This document shows, piece by piece, positions 55,648 to 64,000 of a DNA stretch of 64,000 nt. The stretch's first letter is position 1. Each line of letters begins with the position of its first letter. The DNA comes from Clostridia bacterium. Lineage in GTDB: Bacteria > Bacillota > Clostridia > Monoglobales > Monoglobaceae. A program made the translations under genes and the position numbers. Location of the stretch: NCBI GenBank assembly GCA_017546145.1, contig JAFYXN010000017.1:1-64000 (forward strand), read 5' to 3'. The notes beneath the pieces were generated by a model. It worked only from the letters and a program-made list of their open reading frames with translations. It was not told where the DNA came from and ran no database searches.

Positions 55648-56511
55648 TTAAAAATTTTTAAAGTTTTTGAGCTTATTCTCTATTTTTTCCTTTAACAGAG
55701 CCAGTTCAAGCCGATTGTCAAGAAAGATTTCATCTGCTAAAAGCCCCTGATAGATAAGCATTCCAAAGCCGTTCAGAGTGTTAAATCCTCGTAAATGGGC
55801 CTCTTTTAACAGATTGGTCATCTCAGGATTATAAATCAGGTCATAAACCAGCGAGTCCTTTTTTAAAGAGTTAAGAAATGAAAAATCTTCAAAGTCTGAA
55901 TCAATTCCCTCCATGCCGAGAGGGGTGCCGTTTATAAGAATATCACAGTCTTTTGCGGCAGCTGCCATGCTTTGAGTGGTTAGCTCGCCTGTTTTTACTG
56001 TTTTGCCTGTCCGCAAAAGCACATTTTCGGCAAGTGCGTTTGCAGAAGCCGGGGTGCGGTTGAGAACGGTAATAGAGCTTGCTTCCTCCAAAGCCATTTT
56101 AAGGGCTACGGTTGAAACAACACCGCCGGCGCCTAAAATAACAATGTTTTTATCCTTGCAGGAGCAGCCCTTTTCCTTAATAGCCCATATACAGCCTTGA
56201 CCGTCGGTGTTGTAGCCCAAAAGCTTTCCGCCCTTTACTTTTACAGTGTTGACCGAATTAAAAACAAGCGCTTCGTTGTCGATGTAATCAAGGTATGGCA
56301 AAATGTCCTGCTTGTGAGGCATGGTAAGGTTAAAGCCGCAAATTTCTTTTTGGCGGACTTCGGCTAAGTATTGCTCAAGCTGCCCCTTTTCAACACGTAC
56401 CTTTCTGTATTCATGGTCAAGCTTTAATTCCTCAAGAACGGTTTGGTGAATAACAGGTGACTTGCTGTGGCCGATAGGGTCACCCACGACGTCAAGCTTT
56501 ATTTTAGTCAC
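55648..56511 (-). CDS. aroE: Shikimate dehydrogenase AroE
   Basis: The 287-residue enzyme reduces 3-dehydroshikimate to shikimate with NADPH. The substrate site VVGDPIGHSKSPVIHQT (about residues 6-22), NLTMPHKQDILPYLD with the catalytic Lys, the dinucleotide loop VILGAGGVVSTVALKMA and NGTPLGMEG are present. The GTG at 56511 has GAGGAGG about 9 nt upstream and overlaps the end of aroQ by 8 nt. It is the last gene of the aromatic operon. Confidence 0.93.
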   Translation of the reverse strand: MTKIKLDVVGDPIGHSKSPVIHQTVLEELKLDHEYRKVRVEKGQLEQYLAEVRQKEICGFNLTMPHKQDILPYLDYIDNEALVFNSVNTVKVKGGKLLGYNTDGQGCIWAIKEKGCSCKDKNIVILGAGGVVSTVALKMALEEASSITVLNRTPASANALAENVLLRTGKTVKTGELTTQSMAAAAKDCDILINGTPLGMEGIDSDFEDFSFLNSLKKDSLVYDLIYNPEMTNLLKEAHLRGFNTLNGFGMLIYQGLLADEIFLDNRLELALLKEKIENKLKNFKNF

Positions 56512-56944
56512 GGCACGAAGCCTCCTCTGAAAGAAAGTCGATTGCAAGCAGGTAGCCGCGGAAGCCAAGACCTGCAATCTGCCCTGTACATGCCGGAGCA
56601 GTCACCGACTTGTGACGAAATTCCTCGCGCTTGTGTATGTTGCTGAGATGTACCTCGATTGCCGGAATATCAACCGAAGCAAGTGCGTCATGGATTGCAT
56701 AGCTGTAATGAGTATATGCGCCCGGATTAATAACAATACCGTCGTATGCGCCAAGGGAATGGTGGATGAAGTCAATAAGCTCGCCTTCGCTGTTGCTCTG
56801 CAAAACAGTGACTTCAATACCTTTTTTGGTGCAGTAGTCCTCAATGTAATTTTCAAGGTCTGAATATGTTTTGCTTCCGTAAACATCAGGTTCACGGATT
56901 CCAAGCATATTAAGATTCGGGCCGTTTAAAACCATAATTTTCAT
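56504..56944 (-). CDS. aroQ: Type II 3-dehydroquinate dehydratase AroQ
   Basis: The 146-residue enzyme converts 3-dehydroquinate to 3-dehydroshikimate. It has GPNLNMLGIREPDVYG, the active-site loop, QSNSEGELIDFIH, INPGAYTHYSYAIHDAL and VEVHLSNIHKREEFRHKS with the catalytic His. Length is typical of the dodecameric type II family. It overlaps aroK by 4 nt. Confidence 0.96.
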   Translation of the reverse strand: MKIMVLNGPNLNMLGIREPDVYGSKTYSDLENYIEDYCTKKGIEVTVLQSNSEGELIDFIHHSLGAYDGIVINPGAYTHYSYAIHDALASVDIPAIEVHLSNIHKREEFRHKSVTAPACTGQIAGLGFRGYLLAIDFLSEEASCRD

Positions 56945-57435
56945 AATTTCACCTCGTCTATAATTTTTTCTGCCAATTTCTGCGGCGGAAGAATATTTTT
57001 AATTTCAATATCGCAAGCCTCCAGATAAAGAGGAAGTCTTCTTTCGTAAAGCCGGTAAAGCCTGTTTTTGCCGTCGGCAAGCAAGGGCCGCTTTGAGGTG
57101 TCAATGTCCCCCAAAATGTCTTCAAGGGGTCTGTTGATAAAAATGACTGTGCCGCAGTCCTTCAGTATTTCAAAGTTTTCACGGCGCTCAACACAACCGC
57201 CGCCTGTGGCTATTACTGAATTTTTTGCAGCGGAGAGCTTTTTCAGGGCTTGTGTTTCCAGCTTGCGAAAATACTCCTCGCCGTGCTCGTTGAAAATTTT
57301 TGAAATTTCAGTACCTTCGGTTTGTTCAATAACGCTGTCGCAATCAACAAAGTCAACCCCTAAAGCCTTTGCCAGATACCTGCCCACAGTGCTTTTGCCG
57401 CAACCGGGCATACCTATAAGAACAATATTTTTCAT
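56941..57435 (-). CDS. aroK: Shikimate kinase AroK
   Basis: The 164-residue enzyme phosphorylates shikimate with ATP. Walker A GMPGCGKSTVGRYLAKALG, the shikimate-binding Asp in FVDCDSVIE, IATGGGCVERRENFEIL and the lid Arg in SKRPLLA are present. I placed the start at 57435 (MKNIVLIG); AAAGGA lies 10-12 nt upstream. It follows pheA after 20 nt. Confidence 0.94.
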   Translation of the reverse strand: MKNIVLIGMPGCGKSTVGRYLAKALGVDFVDCDSVIEQTEGTEISKIFNEHGEEYFRKLETQALKKLSAAKNSVIATGGGCVERRENFEILKDCGTVIFINRPLEDILGDIDTSKRPLLADGKNRLYRLYERRLPLYLEACDIEIKNILPPQKLAEKIIDEVKL

Positions 57436-57455
57436 ATATACAAATCCTTTCCGCA

Positions 57456-58592
57456 CTATTCTGAAACGCTGTAGTTGCCCAGTATTTTAAGTGAAGATGT
57501 GGATGCGGAGATTTCTGCCATAATTCCGTTTACGGTGTTATCAAGCAGGCTGCCTTCAAAGTCAACAAAGAACAGGTATTCAAAGTTTCCGTCATGGCTG
57601 GGTCTGGATTCAATCTTAACAAGGTTAAGTCCGTTATCGGCAAAAACCGAAAGCACGTGCGAAAGCGCACCGCTTTCGTCGGGGAGGGTAAACAAAATAC
57701 TGATTTTACGGCAGCTTTTGTTAAGGATTCCGCGTTTTGCAATAACAGCAAAGCGTGTTGTGTTGCCACCGATTGTGCTTATATTCTCGGCAAGAACCTT
57801 AAGGTTGTAAATCTCGGTTGTGCGCTTGCTTGCAATTGCCGCCTTGTCTATATCATCGGTTTCCACAATCATTTTTGCTGCCATTGCGGTGTTGTGGTAC
57901 GGATGAAATTCCATTTTGGGGTATTTGTCAAAGAACTCCTTGCATTGCATATATCCTTGTTCGTGTGAGTATACTGTGCGGATATATTCAAGCTTGGCAT
58001 CGGGAAGCCCTACAAGACAATGGTCAATGGGTACTGCAACCTCGGCTACAATAAAGGCATCCCGTTTTTCAAGCAAATCGTATGCACTTGAAATAACGCC
58101 TGTGGATGAATTTTCGAGGGGCAGTATGCCGTAATCCGCTTCGCCGTTTTCAACAGCGTCGACTACCTTGCCAAAGGTTGAGGTGTTTATGCGTTTGCAA
58201 TCCTTTCCAAAAAATTGAATAAGCGCAGTTTCGCTGTTTGCACCGGGAACGCCCTGATATGCGACTGTCGGGTCACTTTTCAGCTCGCCCTCGTCAAAGT
58301 CTTTAAGCCACGGAGTTCTACCTTCTTCTGATACCAAAGCCTTTGCTTGTGCTACGCGGCTGATTTTCATAATTGTTGAAAAAAAGTCGTAGACAGGAAT
58401 TTTAAGCTCGTTGCTGACTTTTTCAATCTTGTTTTCAAGGATTTGCTTCTCTCTCTGCTTGTCCAGTACCGGCATATTGTTTGCACGCTTGTATTCGGCA
58501 ACGCCTGCACTGCATTCCATGCGACTTAGGAATAATGGTAAAAGCTGAGAGTCTATTTCGTCAATTTTTTTTCTGAGAATTTCCAAGTCATT
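57456..58592 (-). CDS. pheA: Bifunctional chorismate mutase / prephenate dehydratase
   Basis: The 378-residue protein has an AroQ-type chorismate mutase domain (about residues 1-85, NDLEILRKKIDEIDSQLLPLF), a prephenate dehydratase domain (about 105-285, VAYQGVPGANSETA, ENSSTGVI, TTRFAVI) and an ACT regulatory domain (about 295-370, DESGALSHVLSVFADNGLNLVKIESRPS). The GAL and ESRP motifs are those used for phenylalanine feedback inhibition. It makes phenylpyruvate. The ATG at 58592 has AAAGGA upstream; longer in-frame starts run into aroC. Confidence 0.95.
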   Translation of the reverse strand, partial: NDLEILRKKIDEIDSQLLPLFLSRMECSAGVAEYKRANNMPVLDKQREKQILENKIEKVSNELKIPVYDFFSTIMKISRVAQAKALVSEEGRTPWLKDFDEGELKSDPTVAYQGVPGANSETALIQFFGKDCKRINTSTFGKVVDAVENGEADYGILPLENSSTGVISSAYDLLEKRDAFIVAEVAVPIDHCLVGLPDAKLEYIRTVYSHEQGYMQCKEFFDKYPKMEFHPYHNTAMAAKMIVETDDIDKAAIASKRTTEIYNLKVLAENISTIGGNTTRFAVIAKRGILNKSCRKISILFTLPDESGALSHVLSVFADNGLNLVKIESRPSHDGNFEYLFFVDFEGSLLDNTVNGIMAEISASTSSLKILGNYSVSE

Positions 58593-58614
58593 CATTTTGA
58601 TATTCCTTTCAAAG

Positions 58615-59685
58615 CTAAATGAGACCGGCGTCAAGCAAAGCCAGAGCTGCTGCACATTCAACAACAACTGCCGCTCTTTGGACAATGCAGGGGTCGTGCC
58701 TGCCGATTATTTCAATTGTTGTGTTTTCCATTTTTTCAATATCTACGGTGTTTTGTACTTTTGCAATAGAGGGGGTGGGTTTTACTGCAACCGAGAAGAC
58801 AATGGGCATTCCGTTGGTTATGCCGCCGTTTATGCCGCCGTTATTGTTGGTTGCTGTAAAAATTTTATTTCCGTCGGTTGCAAATGGGTCGTTTGCTGTG
58901 CTGCCGTACATTTCGGCAAAGTCAAAGCCACGTCCGAATTCAATTCCCTTAACTGCCGGAATTGAGAACATAATCGACGAAATCTGGCTTTCAACAGCTG
59001 AGAAGAATGGTGAACCCCAGCCCTCTGGAGTGCCAATTGCTGCACATTCGATTATTCCTCCGACAGAGTCCTTATCTGCTGCAGCATTTAGAATTTCTTG
59101 CTGCATTTTTTCGCCTATGGTATCGTCAATAACCGGAAACGCCTTGCTTGTAAGCTCTGCAAGCAAGTCTTTTTGCAGATTGTCTATGTCAAGAAAGGAG
59201 TTTTCTTTGACGTTATGTATCTGTTTGATGTGCGAGCCGATGGTAATTCCCTGCTCCTTTAAAACCTGTTTTGCAATAGCTCCGGCAAAAACCAGACCTG
59301 CAGCAATTCTGCCCGAGAAATGTCCGCCGCCGCGAAAATCATGGCTGTCACCATATTTTAAAAGGCCTGTGAGGTCGGCATGACCCGGTCTTAAAAGATT
59401 TTTTCTGTAGTCCTTTGATTGGGTGTTGGTGTTTCTGATTATACCAATAATAGGTGTGCCGCAGGTTTTGCCGTCAAATATACCTGACAGAATTTCAACT
59501 TCGTCAGCTTCCTTTCGTGGAGTTGACAGCTTATTCTGACCCGGTGCGCGACGCTGCATTTCGCGTTTGATAAAGTCTGTGTCAATAGTAAGCCCTGACG
59601 GAATACCGTCAATCACAGCGCCGATTCCGCCGCCGTGGGATTCTCCGAATATACTGATTTTTATTTTATTTCCCCAAACATTCAT
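58615..59685 (-). CDS. aroC: Chorismate synthase AroC
   Basis: The 356-residue FMN-dependent enzyme makes chorismate from EPSP. It has FGESHGGGIGAVIDGIPSG, RRAPGQNKLSTPRKEADEVEILSG, RPGHADLTGLLKYG and the FSGRIAAG region. The ATG at 59685 has GGAGGTGA 7-8 nt upstream and overlaps the end of aroA by 20 nt. Confidence 0.96.
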   Translation of the reverse strand: MNVWGNKIKISIFGESHGGGIGAVIDGIPSGLTIDTDFIKREMQRRAPGQNKLSTPRKEADEVEILSGIFDGKTCGTPIIGIIRNTNTQSKDYRKNLLRPGHADLTGLLKYGDSHDFRGGGHFSGRIAAGLVFAGAIAKQVLKEQGITIGSHIKQIHNVKENSFLDIDNLQKDLLAELTSKAFPVIDDTIGEKMQQEILNAAADKDSVGGIIECAAIGTPEGWGSPFFSAVESQISSIMFSIPAVKGIEFGRGFDFAEMYGSTANDPFATDGNKIFTATNNNGGINGGITNGMPIVFSVAVKPTPSIAKVQNTVDIEKMENTTIEIIGRHDPCIVQRAAVVVECAAALALLDAGLI

Positions 59686-60955
59686 TTGCGTCACCTCCAA
59701 GTTTTATATAATCCTCAAAAAAGTCTGGATATGATTTTGCAACTGACTTTTTTGCGCCTTCAATTATGACATCGCCCTCGCATCGGCAAGCGGCAATTGC
59801 GGCTGCCATTGCGATGCGGTGGTCGTTGAAGGATGATACGGTGCTGCCGCTTAGCACCTGTGTACCTTTTATAATAAGGAAGTCTTCGCCTTCGGTAATG
59901 TCAGCACCAAGTGATTTAAGAACGGAGCAGATTGCCGAAAGTCGGTCGCTTTCTTTGATTCTCAGCCTTCCTGCATTTACAATCCGGCTTTCGCCCTTGC
60001 AAAATGCAAGCAATACTGCCAGAATCGGAACAAGGTCAGGTATCTCGTCTGCGTCAACCGTGATTCCGTGCATGTTTGCCGAACAAGCAGCACGCAAAGT
60101 AGATGCCGACGATTTTTCAACCAAAGCACCTGTGCTTCTGATAATGTCTATTATCTTTTTGTCGCCTTGCAGGCTGTTTTCTTTCAGCCCCGAGCAGGTG
60201 ATGTTACATCCGATTGCTCCTGCGGTAAGAAAGAATGCGGCTTGAGAAAAATCACCTTCAACAGTGTAGTTTCTTGCCTTGTAGGTCTGCTTCCCTTTAA
60301 CAATAAAGCATTCGTAATTATCGTTAGTTATTTTTATGCCGTATTTTTTCAGTACGTCAAGTGTGATATCTATATATCCTCTTGAGGTAAGAGTTCCTTC
60401 GATTATAATACGGCTGTCACCGTCAAGCAACGGAAGTGCAAAAAGAAGACCGGTAATAAACTGCGAACTGACACTGCCGTCAATTTTAAAGTCGCCGGCA
60501 CAAAGCTTGCCGTTGATTGAAAGTGCGGATTTTTTCTGCTTGTATAAAATGCCTTTTTCGTCAAAAATTTTAAAGTATGGCGTCATGGGCCGCTCCATAA
60601 GTCTGCCGCGTCCTGTAAATTCAAGCTTTTCGGCAAAGCACAGCGCAATGGGGATTAAAAACCGCAAAGTCGAGCCGCTTTCACCGCAGTCAAGCTTAAT
60701 TTTTTTGGTTGACCTGTCCTTGCTGCTCTTCAAAATGCTTACTGAAGCCTTTTTTTCGTCAAAGATATATTCTGCACCCAATGCATCAATGCAGCCAAGA
60801 GTTGCTTTTATGTCGTCTGATAGCTTAATATTGTTTATTTTACATTCATCGCCCGATAAGAATGCGGCAAGAAGCGCGCGATGGGCATAGCTTTTTGATG
60901 GTGGAACCTTTACCTTTCCTGAAAGAACGGCAGGGGAAATTTTTATTGAGTCCAT
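59666..60955 (-). CDS. aroA: EPSP synthase AroA
   Basis: The 429-residue enzyme (3-phosphoshikimate 1-carboxyvinyltransferase) has VKVPPSKSYAHRALLAAFLS, LDCGESGSTLRFLIPIAL, the RPMTPYFKIF segment and KESDRLSAICSVLKSLGAD. The LDCGESGSTLRF loop with Ser rather than Asn-Ala-Gly-Thr-Ala is the pattern of class II-like bacterial enzymes, though class assignment needs an alignment. It overlaps aroB by 13 nt and aroC by 20 nt. Confidence 0.95.
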   Translation of the reverse strand: MDSIKISPAVLSGKVKVPPSKSYAHRALLAAFLSGDECKINNIKLSDDIKATLGCIDALGAEYIFDEKKASVSILKSSKDRSTKKIKLDCGESGSTLRFLIPIALCFAEKLEFTGRGRLMERPMTPYFKIFDEKGILYKQKKSALSINGKLCAGDFKIDGSVSSQFITGLLFALPLLDGDSRIIIEGTLTSRGYIDITLDVLKKYGIKITNDNYECFIVKGKQTYKARNYTVEGDFSQAAFFLTAGAIGCNITCSGLKENSLQGDKKIIDIIRSTGALVEKSSASTLRAACSANMHGITVDADEIPDLVPILAVLLAFCKGESRIVNAGRLRIKESDRLSAICSVLKSLGADITEGEDFLIIKGTQVLSGSTVSSFNDHRIAMAAAIAACRCEGDVIIEGAKKSVAKSYPDFFEDYIKLGGDANECLGK

Positions 60956-61998
60956 ATACTGTTTTTCTCCGTATCTTTTATAATAACCTTTCCGATTTTT
61001 TCGGGGACAATCAAAGCAACCGTATTGCCCTTGCCCTTTTTGTCAACAGCCACAGCGTCGGCAAGGGACTGCTTGTCTATCGCGACCCTGTCGGGAAGAT
61101 TGTATTTTTTGATAAGCCTTCGTATACGCTCTGATGAATTGTCAAGGGTGATGCCCCATTTTTCACCAAGCTCGGCTGCCATAACCATCCCTGCGGCAAC
61201 TGCTTCGCCGTGAGTATAATCTGTAAAGTTATATTTCTTTTCGATTGCATGACCAAAGGTGTGACCAAAGTTAAGTATCATACGTCCGCCTGTATCGGTT
61301 TCGTCATCTTCAACCACCATTCGTTTAAGGTCACAGCAGCGCAGTACAACATCGTCTATAATTTCCATCATATCTGTTCGCGAGGAGGTCTTTTCAAGTT
61401 GGCAAAAGAGGTGTTCGTCCAAAATTACGCCGTATTTAATCACCTCTGCCATGCCGTCGCTGAAGTTGCGGTCAGAAAGAGTTTCAAGACATAATGGGTC
61501 AATAATTACCATTTTGGGCTGATAGAATGCTCCGACCAGATTTTTGCCGTGAGGCAGATTAACTGCAACCTTCCCGCCGACACTGCTGTCAACCTGTGCC
61601 AAAAGCGTGGTAGGAATTTGTATAAACGGGATTCCGCGAAGCAAGGTTGCGGCGCAAAATCCGGTCAGGTCACCAACTACACCGCCGCCAAGAGCGATAA
61701 TCAGGTCTGTTCGGGTAATACCCTGTTTAAGCAATTCGCTATAAAGAAATTCAAGCATCTCGATTGATTTTGAACTTTCGCCTGCAGGAACAGTGACTAA
61801 AAACGGACTAAAGCCTGAATTTTCAAGCGAGTCAATAAGCCTTTTTGCATAAAGCGGACCAACATTGCTGTCGGTGATTATTGCTGCTTTGCATTTTGGG
61901 TGAATTTTGGCAATAAGGCTGCCGCTTTCATCAAAAATTCCCTTTTCAATTTTTATGTCATATTCCCTGCCGGGAAGATTAACTCTTAATGTTTTCAT
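60943..61998 (-). CDS. aroB: 3-dehydroquinate synthase AroB
   Basis: The 351-residue NAD- and metal-dependent enzyme makes 3-dehydroquinate. It has IIALGGGVVGDLTGFCAATLLRG, PTTLLAQVDSSVGGKVAVN, the metal ligand segment and LNFGHTFGHAIEK. The ATG at 61998 is preceded by TTGGAGGACAC; a longer ORF from 62019 overlaps tyrA. It is second in the operon, 14 nt after tyrA. Confidence 0.96.
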   Translation of the reverse strand: MKTLRVNLPGREYDIKIEKGIFDESGSLIAKIHPKCKAAIITDSNVGPLYAKRLIDSLENSGFSPFLVTVPAGESSKSIEMLEFLYSELLKQGITRTDLIIALGGGVVGDLTGFCAATLLRGIPFIQIPTTLLAQVDSSVGGKVAVNLPHGKNLVGAFYQPKMVIIDPLCLETLSDRNFSDGMAEVIKYGVILDEHLFCQLEKTSSRTDMMEIIDDVVLRCCDLKRMVVEDDETDTGGRMILNFGHTFGHAIEKKYNFTDYTHGEAVAAGMVMAAELGEKWGITLDNSSERIRRLIKKYNLPDRVAIDKQSLADAVAVDKKGKGNTVALIVPEKIGKVIIKDTEKNSIWTQ

Positions 61999-62012
61999 TT
62001 TGTGTCCTCCAA

Positions 62013-62882
62013 TCAGCAACTTTCAGGCTCTTTGCCCTGCATGGTAAGCTTGTTTTCTTTTACCTTTGCAAGAAGTGCGAAAAGCTCTTTATCATTTCGG
62101 GTTTCAATTGCGGCTCTTACTTTGTTAAGTGAGCCTATATAGCTGTCAATTTCGTCAAGCAAAAATTTACGGTTTTCCAAAAAAAGCTGTGTCCAAAGCC
62201 CGGGGTTTATGTTTGCAATTCTGGTGCAGTCGCGGAATGCTCCGGCTGTGTAGGCTCTGTTCATTTTATCGTTGTAGTCAAGACAAAGACATGCCGCCGA
62301 AACGTGCATCAAATCACTGGTGTATGCAATGACGCTGTCGTGCTCTTCGGGGGTGCTTTGTGTAATTCGGGTTGCACCTATGTATCTTGCCATATCACGT
62401 ATCATTTTTATTCCGTTTTCGGTTGAGGACTTTGCAGGAGTGATAATAAATCCGCACATACCAAAAAGCTCGGGAGCCGCGCTGTCAAAACCATCGGTTT
62501 CTTTGCCTGCCATGGGATGTCCGCCTACATATTCGCAGCCTTCGGGAAGAATCTCTTCAATCTCTTTTGCAAGCTTCGATTTAACACCGCAAACATCGGT
62601 TATAATCGCGCCCGGCTTAAAGCTTTTACGGTTTTTCCGAATAATTTTAACAATCAGTTCAGGATATGTACAAAGGATAACCAAATCTGCATTTTCGATA
62701 GCCGAAGCAGCCTCTGCTGAAACCTCATCTACCGCACCGCGGTCAAGCGCCTTTCGCCTTGTTTCGGGGTCAATATCGCAACCAAAAATTGTGGCGTTTT
62801 TGAAGCCTTTTAAGGCATAAGCCATTGAACCACCGATTATACCAAGTCCTATAATTGCAATTTTAAAGTCGGAATTCTCCAT
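62013..62882 (-). CDS. tyrA: Prephenate dehydrogenase TyrA
   Basis: The 289-residue NAD-dependent enzyme makes 4-hydroxyphenylpyruvate for tyrosine. The dinucleotide loop IIGLGIIGGSMAYALK, GCDIDPETRRKALDRG, YVGGHPMAGKETDGFDSA and the catalytic-domain TPEEHDSVIAYTSDLMHV are present. No ACT domain follows, so tyrosine feedback, if any, acts elsewhere. It is the first structural gene after the Phe/Tyr attenuator; AAAGG lies about 14 nt upstream, a longer spacing than usual. Confidence 0.94.
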   Translation of the reverse strand: MENSDFKIAIIGLGIIGGSMAYALKGFKNATIFGCDIDPETRRKALDRGAVDEVSAEAASAIENADLVILCTYPELIVKIIRKNRKSFKPGAIITDVCGVKSKLAKEIEEILPEGCEYVGGHPMAGKETDGFDSAAPELFGMCGFIITPAKSSTENGIKMIRDMARYIGATRITQSTPEEHDSVIAYTSDLMHVSAACLCLDYNDKMNRAYTAGAFRDCTRIANINPGLWTQLFLENRKFLLDEIDSYIGSLNKVRAAIETRNDKELFALLAKVKENKLTMQGKEPESC

Positions 62883-62907: not shown

Positions 62908-62939
62908 AAAAAAGAGAGCCCGCAGTATAACGAACTCTC
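62908..62939 (-). terminator. Attenuator terminator of the aromatic operon
   Basis: On the minus strand GAGAGTTCG (62939-62931) pairs with CGGGCTCTC (62922-62914) as a 9 bp stem with two G-U pairs, followed by six U residues (62913-62908), ending 26 nt before tyrA. Confidence 0.85.
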
Positions 62940-62962
62940 AAAAAATCAGTATTTTTTGTTCG
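62931..62962 (-). promoter_or_regulatory. Candidate antiterminator hairpin of the aromatic attenuator
   Basis: CGAAC (62962-62958) plus AAAAAAT (62957-62951) can pair with ATTTTTT (62946-62940) and, past a four-base bulge, GTTCG (62935-62931). GTTCG is half of the terminator's 5' arm, so this fold and the terminator exclude one another. A second hairpin, TCGGTT/AACCGA (62975-62970 with 62965-62960), competes for the CGA of the antiterminator and holds the leader stop codon at its loop and 3' arm. Confidence 0.7.
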
Positions 62963-62963
62963 G

Positions 62964-63104
62964 TTATGCAACCGACATTGTTTTAAGCTCATTATACTTA
63001 TTTGTTTTTGCCAAGTAAAAATAACCGTAGCTAAAGTAAAAGCTAAGGCTGATAAAGTAAAAATAATATTTAACTGCTTGTTTTAGTAAATTCACCAGTC
63101 TCAT
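62964..63104 (-). CDS. Phe/Tyr-rich leader peptide of the aromatic operon
   Basis: A 46-codon ORF starts at ATG 63104, with AAGAGG at a good distance, and ends at TAA 62966-62964. Residues 13-30 contain 12 aromatic residues out of 18 (YYFYF, FYF, Y, YFY); in all there are 8 Tyr and 5 Phe codons and no Trp. It lies between a strong promoter and the attenuator terminator, upstream of an operon containing both tyrA and pheA. The known parallels are the pheA and pheST leader peptides of enteric bacteria, where ribosome stalling at Phe codons lets the antiterminator form. Here shortage of charged Phe- or Tyr-tRNA would stall the ribosome well before the hairpins; completing translation would place it at the UAA, masking the antiterminator's CGAAC and leaving the terminator to form. 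No similarity to a functional protein is expected. Confidence 0.85.
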   Translation of the reverse strand: MRLVNLLKQAVKYYFYFISLSFYFSYGYFYLAKTNKYNELKTMSVA

Positions 63105-63149
63105 ATCTTTATACCTCTTGGGTTATTTTAATTGAACCTAATTGAAGAA

Positions 63150-63178
63150 AGTATATCACTTTAAAGCGTTAAAGTCAA
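63150..63178 (-). promoter_or_regulatory. Promoter of the aromatic amino acid operon
   Basis: Minus-strand TTGACT (63178-63173), a 17 bp spacer and TATACT (63155-63150). Transcription would begin near 63143, giving about 39 nt before the leader ATG. Confidence 0.85.
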
Positions 63179-63315: not shown

Positions 63316-64000
63316 ATGAGAAAAATATTTATACTTTCGGTAATGATAACAGCTATTTTGGCAGCAAAAACTACACTGGCAAATAGCTATGTTGAATGCA
63401 GCGCGAATATACACGGACAACAGGTGAACATTTCAGGATGTATATTAAACGTAAACCAAAGTCATCAGGTGAGTTTGCTGGTTGGTGATGTAAACAATAT
63501 TTTGTATATTGACCAAAAATCAAGTGACTCAAACGGAGCGTTCAGTTTTGACTTCAGACTGCCTGACACGTTGGAGGCAGGTACGTATGCTTTTGGAATA
63601 GGAACAACAGCAGGTACGGAAAAGTACAGTGGAATACTGATATATGAACCGGAGGAGTCGTCAACTGTATATGTGGAATGTACTGCAACAGTAACTGGAC
63701 AACAGGTGAACATTTCAGGACGTATATTAAACGTAAACCAAAGTCATCAGGTGAGTTTGCTGGTTGGTGATGTAAACAATATTTTGTATATTGACCAGAA
63801 ATCAAGTGATTCAAACGGAGAGTTCAGCTTTGACTTCAGACTGCCTGACTCGTTGGAGGCAGGTATATATGATTTTGGAATTGGTACAACAGCGGGTACG
63901 GAAAAGTATAGCGGAACAATCACGTATGTGCCTGTTATTGAGACGGTTGAAAGGCAGTTTTTTGACGCAGATGTAACGGTTTCAATATCAAATTTTGTTC
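63316..64000 (+). CDS. Secreted protein with near-identical tandem repeats (3' end outside window)
   Basis: The ORF opens with ATG 63316 after GGAGG (63304-63308) and stays open to the window edge (228 codons). Residues 1-22 are a signal peptide (IFILSVMITAILAAK, cleavage near LANS). Two copies of a 94-residue unit follow (DNA period 282 bp, from 63415 and 63697), each containing GQQVNISG, NVNQSHQVSLLVGDVNNILY, FDFRLPD and GIGTTAGTEKYSG. The predicted beta-rich pattern suggests an immunoglobulin-like surface domain, but I do not recognise the family. Near-identity at DNA level, including silent positions, points to a recent duplication. It is divergent from the aromatic operon and is probably an exported surface protein. 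Confidence 0.85.
   Translation, partial: MRKIFILSVMITAILAAKTTLANSYVECSANIHGQQVNISGCILNVNQSHQVSLLVGDVNNILYIDQKSSDSNGAFSFDFRLPDTLEAGTYAFGIGTTAGTEKYSGILIYEPEESSTVYVECTATVTGQQVNISGRILNVNQSHQVSLLVGDVNNILYIDQKSSDSNGEFSFDFRLPDSLEAGIYDFGIGTTAGTEKYSGTITYVPVIETVERQFFDADVTVSISNFV
63415..63978 (+). repeat. Two 282 bp tandem repeat units
   Basis: Unit 1 (from 63415) and unit 2 (from 63697) begin with the same 24 bases bar one nearby change, and differ at only a small number of scattered positions over the first ~225 nt; they diverge toward the end of each unit. Confidence 0.85.

Follow-up and report, generated by a model that had tools for sequence, protein, structure and literature searches.

A very likely Phe/Tyr leader-peptide attenuator in front of aromatic amino acid biosynthesis genes of Clostridia

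The tyrA-aroBAC-pheA-aroKQE operon described here, from a gut bacterium of the Clostridia, is preceded by a leader that is very likely a ribosome-mediated Phe/Tyr transcription attenuator, an assignment that has no expression, ribosome footprint or transcript 3'-end data behind it. The leader meets the criteria for such a device: an ORF with a Shine-Dalgarno sequence, a run of Phe and Tyr codons, an intrinsic terminator, an exclusive antiterminator that shares the 5' arm of the terminator, and the geometry among them. Leader-peptide attenuation is a kind of control that was already known, and what would be new is the dual Phe/Tyr reading, a layout predicted to be ON by default and the spread across the class Clostridia. 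The earlier note had also interpreted the region as an attenuator, which is supported here with the antiterminator corrected.

The leader locus and its operon

The window (the whole 64-kb stretch of DNA that was analysed) contains the leader and the operon on the minus strand, to which all coordinates refer unless indicated. The whole promoter, TTGACT-17-TATACT at 63178-63150, was seen directly in the sequence and consists of a -35 hexamer TTGACT (63173..63178) and, after a 17-nt spacer, a -10 hexamer TATACT (63150..63155) preceded by TG. The sequence TTGACTTTA at the -35 is unchanged across all nine genomes of the genus. Downstream, the Shine-Dalgarno AAGAGG (63114..63119, AAAGG-type in the relatives) precedes an ORF of 46 codons plus TAA that starts with the ATG at 63104 (62964..63104), encodes the peptide MRLVNLLKQAVKYYFYFISLSFYFSYGYFYLAKTNKYNELKTMSVA and is conserved both within the genus (9/9 genomes) and across the family. 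The start codon and the Shine-Dalgarno are kept in the relatives, and the translation of the ORF is itself inferred. Codons 13-30 of this ORF form the regulatory run YYFYFISLSFYFSYGYFY (63015..63068) with 12 Phe/Tyr codons. A scan of 64,431 windows of 18 residues, covering every stop-free frame of the 64 kb, placed this run first with its 12 Phe/Tyr; the best value elsewhere was 9. No Trp codons are present in this leader.

The intrinsic terminator GAGAGTTCGTTATACTGCGGGCTCTC (62914..62939), supported by folding and covariation, is a hairpin of 10 bp followed by the U-tract UUUUUU (62908..62913, six T in the DNA), which ends 25 nt before the ATG of tyrA (62882). The 3' part of the leader folds with a z of -4.1 and the whole leader with a z of -3.3 when compared with dinucleotide shuffles. 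Annotation by Pfam gave the gene order tyrA-aroB-aroA-aroC-pheA-aroK-aroQ-aroE, that is, prephenate dehydrogenase (tyrA, the first structural gene, 62013..62882, PF02153 and PF20463), 3-dehydroquinate synthase (aroB, 60943..62019), EPSP synthase (aroA, 59666..60955), chorismate synthase (aroC, 58615..59700), chorismate mutase-prephenate dehydratase-ACT (pheA, CM-PDT-ACT, 57456..58685), shikimate kinase (aroK, 56941..57456), type II 3-dehydroquinase (aroQ, 56504..56944) and shikimate dehydrogenase (aroE, 55648..56577). The parts of the device are thus shown, and the promoter, the 46-codon ORF, the run with 12 aromatic residues, the terminator with its six U and the operon, all proposed in the earlier note, held where it had placed them. 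On the other side of the leader, at 63316-64000 of the plus strand, a divergent gene codes for a secreted protein with near-identical internal repeats and runs past the end of the window.

No T-box or other Rfam element was found in the leader at the gathering cut-off, and lowering the stringency to E values of up to 10 gave only chance hits, so that the absence of a T-box claimed in the earlier note held with the covariance models. The scan covered the whole of Rfam, and the enteric Phe_leader model did not match the leader either. No Pfam or NCBIfam family was found for 17 leader peptides.

Conservation in the genus and the family

The same leader is encoded in 9/9 genomes of the genus, among which the identity of tyrA is only 71-81%. 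It lies directly before tyrA in three of them, the window genome (G000), G002 and G004, and in the other six the order is leader, aroF-type DAHP synthase and then tyrA. An aroF of that type was not found in G000, G002 and G004, where the leader abuts tyrA; the position of the leader before tyrA in the window genome is explained by the lack of aroF in the genome assembly. The leader was seemingly retained when aroF was lost, with the caveat that the assemblies are incomplete. In these three genomes, all missing the clostridial aroF-type DAHP synthase, the sole PF00793 match belongs to the AroG type (in G000 it lies on a separate contig). No leader was found before the AroG-type DAHP synthase of G000, G002, G004, G005 and G007.

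The core of the peptide in the genus is K-Y-[FY]-[FY]-Y-F-I-S-L-S-F-Y-F-S-Y-G-Y-F, with F<->Y exchanges and silent changes. Across the family as a whole, aromatic leaders precede aroF, tyrA or a pheA-like gene in 33 of the 38 genomes. They were located by a peptide profile, searches for aroF and reading of the upstream DNA, and comprise 31 leaders studied in detail (before aroF or tyrA), one before aroF in G032, found by reading the locus, and one before a chorismate mutase gene in G028, found by a second peptide profile. The leader was absent at the loci examined in five family genomes (g3, g5 and G031). The matches that the first peptide profile gave in L044-L049 had weak E-values and no operon context and were rejected as chance. 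The core of every one of the 31 detailed leaders contains 7 or more Phe/Tyr, and F<->Y exchanges occur there along with silent changes between TTT and TTC and between TAT and TAC; each leader contains both amino acids (5-10 F and 3-8 Y per peptide, totalling 209 Phe and 152 Tyr codons). The conservation of the run is thereby shown. It had been proposed beforehand that the Phe/Tyr run should be preserved in relatives through synonymous changes, a check that was passed, and no relatives were found that keep the hairpins and lose the aromatic codons, which would have spoken against the attenuator.

Two mutually exclusive stems

The antiterminator is formed by AGTATAATGAGCTT (62998-62985) paired with GAGTTCGTTATACT (62937-62924) and uses the GTTCG of the terminator arm. 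Its 5' arm (arm 2, AGUAUAAUGAGCUU, 62985..62998), supported by covariation and duplex swaps, lies inside the ORF directly 3' of the aromatic run and starts 16 nt after the final aromatic codon there; in most leaders it starts 15-20 nt past the conserved GYF motif. The 3' arm (arm 3, GAGUUCGUUAUACU, 62924..62937) overlaps the 5' arm and the loop of the terminator. The earlier note had also proposed an antiterminator that used GTTCG, which held only in part, as the supported arm is at 62985-62998 and not beside the stop codon. A 5-bp CGAAC:GTTCG pairing, our reconstruction of the one it had in mind, was rejected because it was only 56% paired, no better than shuffles. The competing hairpin at the stop codon, CGGTT-GCAT-AACCG, is present in the sequence, but it is not conserved, with 38% of the cells paired over 9 relatives.

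Covariation of both stems is shown, so that the compensatory changes expected in the two alternative stems were indeed found. Within the genus the antiterminator is 94% paired over the 13 pairs tested, with 2 compensatory pairs and a covariation score reached by 1 of 500 shuffles, whereas sliding the helix by 1-3 columns left only 32-47% paired. The terminator is 98.9% paired within the genus and has 3 pairs changed on both sides. Over the family, the duplex of arm 2 and arm 3 has a mean of -19.1 kcal/mol for the cognate arms versus -11.0 for swaps between genera, and only 0.03% of random re-pairings of genera reach the total of the cognate arms. The arm sequences differ by genus and yet fit their partner, as in AAAGCCC/GGGCUUU (g4), AAAGCUCGCUU/AAGGCGAGCUUU (g6) and GAACCUG/CAGGUUC (g7). 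In G003 (L009 276-439) a one-base deletion just before arm 2 shifts the frame, truncates the peptide, with the stop now falling on the antiterminator arm, and AUAAUGAGCU is retained despite the shift. Since the arm was kept when the frame was lost, this stretch is kept for RNA pairing and not for the peptide.

The aromatic run contains a further hairpin, with its 5' arm AGCCUUAGC at 63042..63050 pairing 8 of 9 positions with the 3' arm GCUACGGUU at 63023..63031. An equivalent hairpin, AGCnnnAGC...GCUnnGGYU, has 7-9 of 9 positions paired in 30/31 family leaders and is lost in G009. The Ser codons of this stretch are AGC in 80 of 90 cases versus 29% in the operon genes of the window; within the genus its covariation was uninformative. 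The hairpin could possibly be a pause site for RNA polymerase, which is only inferred.

Predicted switching and proposed mechanism

The alternative structures were modelled for different ribosome positions by masking the RNA under the ribosome, with an assumed footprint of 13 nt downstream of the A-site, and folding the rest. With A-site codons 1-32, and before arm 4 is made, the probability of the antiterminator was 0.97-0.98, and from codon 36 on it was 0 and that of the terminator 0.92-0.99. In the model, the predicted fold thus flips where the aromatic run ends; the exact switch point, between codons 33 and 36, depends on the assumed footprint. Equilibrium folding of the full leader, arm 4 included, favours the terminator in many relatives even with a stalled ribosome, and therefore the choice must be kinetic and co-transcriptional, as in trp.

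A conserved protector (1:2) arm was not found in the relatives, only a minority of which have arm 2 paired upstream. In a fold of the single sequence the 5' UTR seemed to protect arm 2 by pairing with it, a possibility that was rejected as it is not conserved in relatives. As no conserved arm sequesters arm 2, read-through would be expected without translation, and folding alone predicts it (ON) as the default in most leaders. The protector hairpin belongs to the trp-type layout and is not general to leader-peptide attenuation.

We propose that RNA polymerase would start near 63143 and a ribosome would begin the leader of 46 codons. Scarcity of Phe or Tyr would stall it in codons 13-30 and leave arm 2 free to pair with arm 3 once the latter is made; arm 3 would then be unavailable to the terminator and the tyrA-aroBAC-pheA-aroKQE genes would be read. 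With Phe and Tyr plentiful, the ribosome would pass the run and cover arm 2, or would already have melted it, so that with arm 2 blocked arm 3 would pair with the 3' arm of the terminator and transcription would end at the U-tract. The attenuator would in this way read how much charged tRNA-Phe and tRNA-Tyr is available. A coupling that is tight enough and an in-vivo response to starvation are inferred.

Leaders across the class Clostridia

The device is not peculiar to the tyrA operon described in the earlier note: similar leaders are found across Clostridia, usually before aroF. We analyzed 97 aroF upstream regions from 37 families outside that of the window, a sample made of the genomes most similar to the family's aroF, so that the counts are not class-wide frequencies. 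Of these regions, 51/97 had a stretch with at least 8 F/Y/W in 16 residues, a density that the opposite strand reached in 0/97 and dinucleotide shuffles in 0.7%. Lowering the threshold to at least 7 gave 62/97 regions (opposite strand 10/97), in 32/37 families. Among the class leaders found by profile, all 17 loci inspected were located before aroF, another DAHP synthase gene or a chorismate mutase gene and had a terminator. Cognate arms again paired better (-15.3 vs -9.8, permutation z -12.7, uncorrected for relatedness). Two types of arm 3 recur, CTCRT in 14 sampled families and CAG in 9; the genus of the window, with CTCGTTAT, is near the CTCRT type. Rfam detected a T-box in 3 of 40 mostly leader-less aroF regions, 2 of them on the strand opposite to the stored locus, and in none of 20 leader-bearing ones.

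Several variants deserve mention. In several families, chorismate mutase/pheA-like operons are preceded by a sub-family of leaders with the peptide K-Y-F-F-x-F-S-V-x-F-Y-F-G-Y-A-Y-F-A-M-K-K-L (L123, L128, L111, L119 and L110). In family f70, the leaders before aroF at L214, L215, L212 and L227 mix Trp with Phe/Tyr (RFTSFGYPRFFWAWDF) and could conceivably read all three aromatic amino acids. In family f12, L146 and L158 have strongly aromatic leader ORFs before aroF for which a simple scan finds no terminator; they might act through another output.

A candidate operator overlapping the promoter

Between the -35 and the -10 there is a candidate operator ACTTTAACGCTTTAAAGTG (63157..63175), an exact match to the core TTTAnnnnnnTAAAgtg of the HisR consensus (cacTTTAnnnnnnTAAAgtg, PMC9413887), for which there are no binding data. 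Site ACTTTAN6TAAAGTG at the leader promoter is the sole exact match in the genome, and the -35/-10 spacer in the genus holds a TTTAnnnnnnTAAA-type sequence. Only exact sites and promoter position were counted, as with one mismatch the background was as high as the signal. A matching promoter-operator pattern precedes a TrpR-family gene that is found with his genes (G000:C14). Similar patterns were seen before a symporter (G000:C1) and, in G005, before an ABC transporter adjoining a second TrpR-family gene. The operator was absent from the other genera and is confined to that of the window. The promoter of this genus bears a match to a HisR-type (TrpR-family) operator, binding being inferred from sequence alone, and it is possible that operator and attenuator coexist as two layers of control.

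Alternative explanations

The rival that survives best, though it is unlikely, is a sensor for a single amino acid, with either Phe or Tyr alone being read and the other aromatics tolerated. In its favor, Phe and Tyr codons are one base apart and swap freely at several positions. Against it, both amino acids are present in 31/31 leaders, and the loss of one would be expected in some lineages.

It is very unlikely that the peptide itself acts, as an arrest peptide of the TnaC/SecM type or a small membrane protein. The invariance within the genus of I-S-L-S, with its non-aromatic residues, and S-Y-G-Y-F would support this possibility. However, the invariant residues fall on both arms of the hairpin in the coding run, and this overlap together with the biased use of AGC for Ser is why RNA pairing explains them. 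Furthermore, the peptides of the class diverge widely except in their aromaticity, unlike known arrest peptides, and they belong to no Pfam or NCBIfam family.

Equally improbable is a constitutive partial terminator combined with control only at the promoter by a HisR/TrpR-type repressor, the ORF being a by-product of AT-rich DNA. In its favor, the promoter is overlapped by a site that fits the HisR operator consensus perfectly. Nevertheless, the run is the densest of all the windows scanned and is kept in most of the family, the antiterminator co-varies, and the operator is confined to one genus while the attenuator is not.

Finally, control of the terminator by a T-box or another RNA that binds uncharged tRNA or a metabolite, with an incidental ORF, is all but excluded: T-boxes are the usual device for amino acid genes in Bacillota and a few sampled aroF regions carry one, but the leader has no Rfam match beyond chance hits, none of the 20 leader-bearing aroF regions scanned had a T-box, and what is conserved is the aromatic coding run and the arms, with F/Y kept through silent and F<->Y changes.

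Relation to known attenuators and significance

The enteric pheA and pheST attenuators (PheL; Phe_leader in Rfam) consist of a short Phe-rich ORF with an exclusive antiterminator and terminator. Like them, the ribosome-mediated attenuator favored here combines an ORF of regulatory codons with an exclusive antiterminator/intrinsic terminator before Phe biosynthesis genes; unlike them, it mixes Phe and Tyr, has no conserved 1:2 protector and no Rfam match, its operon spans the common pathway plus both branches, and its host belongs to the Clostridia. E. coli trp with TrpR is similar in its leader peptide attenuation and, as regards this genus, in having a promoter site for a TrpR-family repressor (here a HisR-type match), whereas the leader described here would sense Phe/Tyr, has no Trp codons in the window and, in most of its relatives too, has the antiterminator as the predicted default in the absence of a ribosome. 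The T-box (RF00230) also relieves termination under amino acid starvation, but by direct binding of tRNA, while here the sensor would be the ribosome.

A close precedent is the uORFC-13-1 motif (PMC8632094), located upstream of aroF in Acholeplasma, with a Phe uORF next to an intrinsic terminator and for which attenuation was proposed. It was described from 24 sequences, only from Acholeplasma and environmental DNA, with at least one Phe codon and without any antiterminator or Tyr being described. The Clostridia leaders share with it the Phe-containing uORF before aroF beside an intrinsic terminator, and differ in their dense Phe/Tyr run and their presence in many families. Classical leader-peptide attenuators that replace T-boxes are also known elsewhere in Bacillota, for hisS/hisZ in Bacillus (PMC2965389), the his operon in Firmicutes (PMC9413887) and ilv in S. 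aureus, with a Leu-rich peptide (PMC5794164). They concern other amino acids in few lineages and none is for the aromatic pathway. No description of a Phe/Tyr attenuator in Clostridia was found in the open-access literature searched, which does not cover subscription papers, so that this absence is not proof.

T-boxes are thought to dominate such control in Clostridia. A bolder reading would be that much of the class controls the first step of the aromatic pathway mainly through a single ancient Phe/Tyr attenuator with two arm-3 types (CTCRT and CAG), whose antiterminator is the default and in which the translating ribosome brings about termination; in the genus of the window a TrpR-family site would be added to it. 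We are slightly more inclined to doubt than to accept all these parts taken together.

The leaders described here raise the mechanistic question of how a leader behaves without a protector arm. The peptide profile and the alternative stems supply a family definition that was missing from Rfam, Pfam and NCBIfam. Leader-peptide attenuation, long seen as mainly proteobacterial and actinobacterial, would be common in the aromatic pathway of Clostridia, where a single leader may report on both of the amino acids that its operon feeds. For the many Clostridia, from the gut and from industry, that have no T-box according to Rfam, this gives a testable account of how aroF is controlled.
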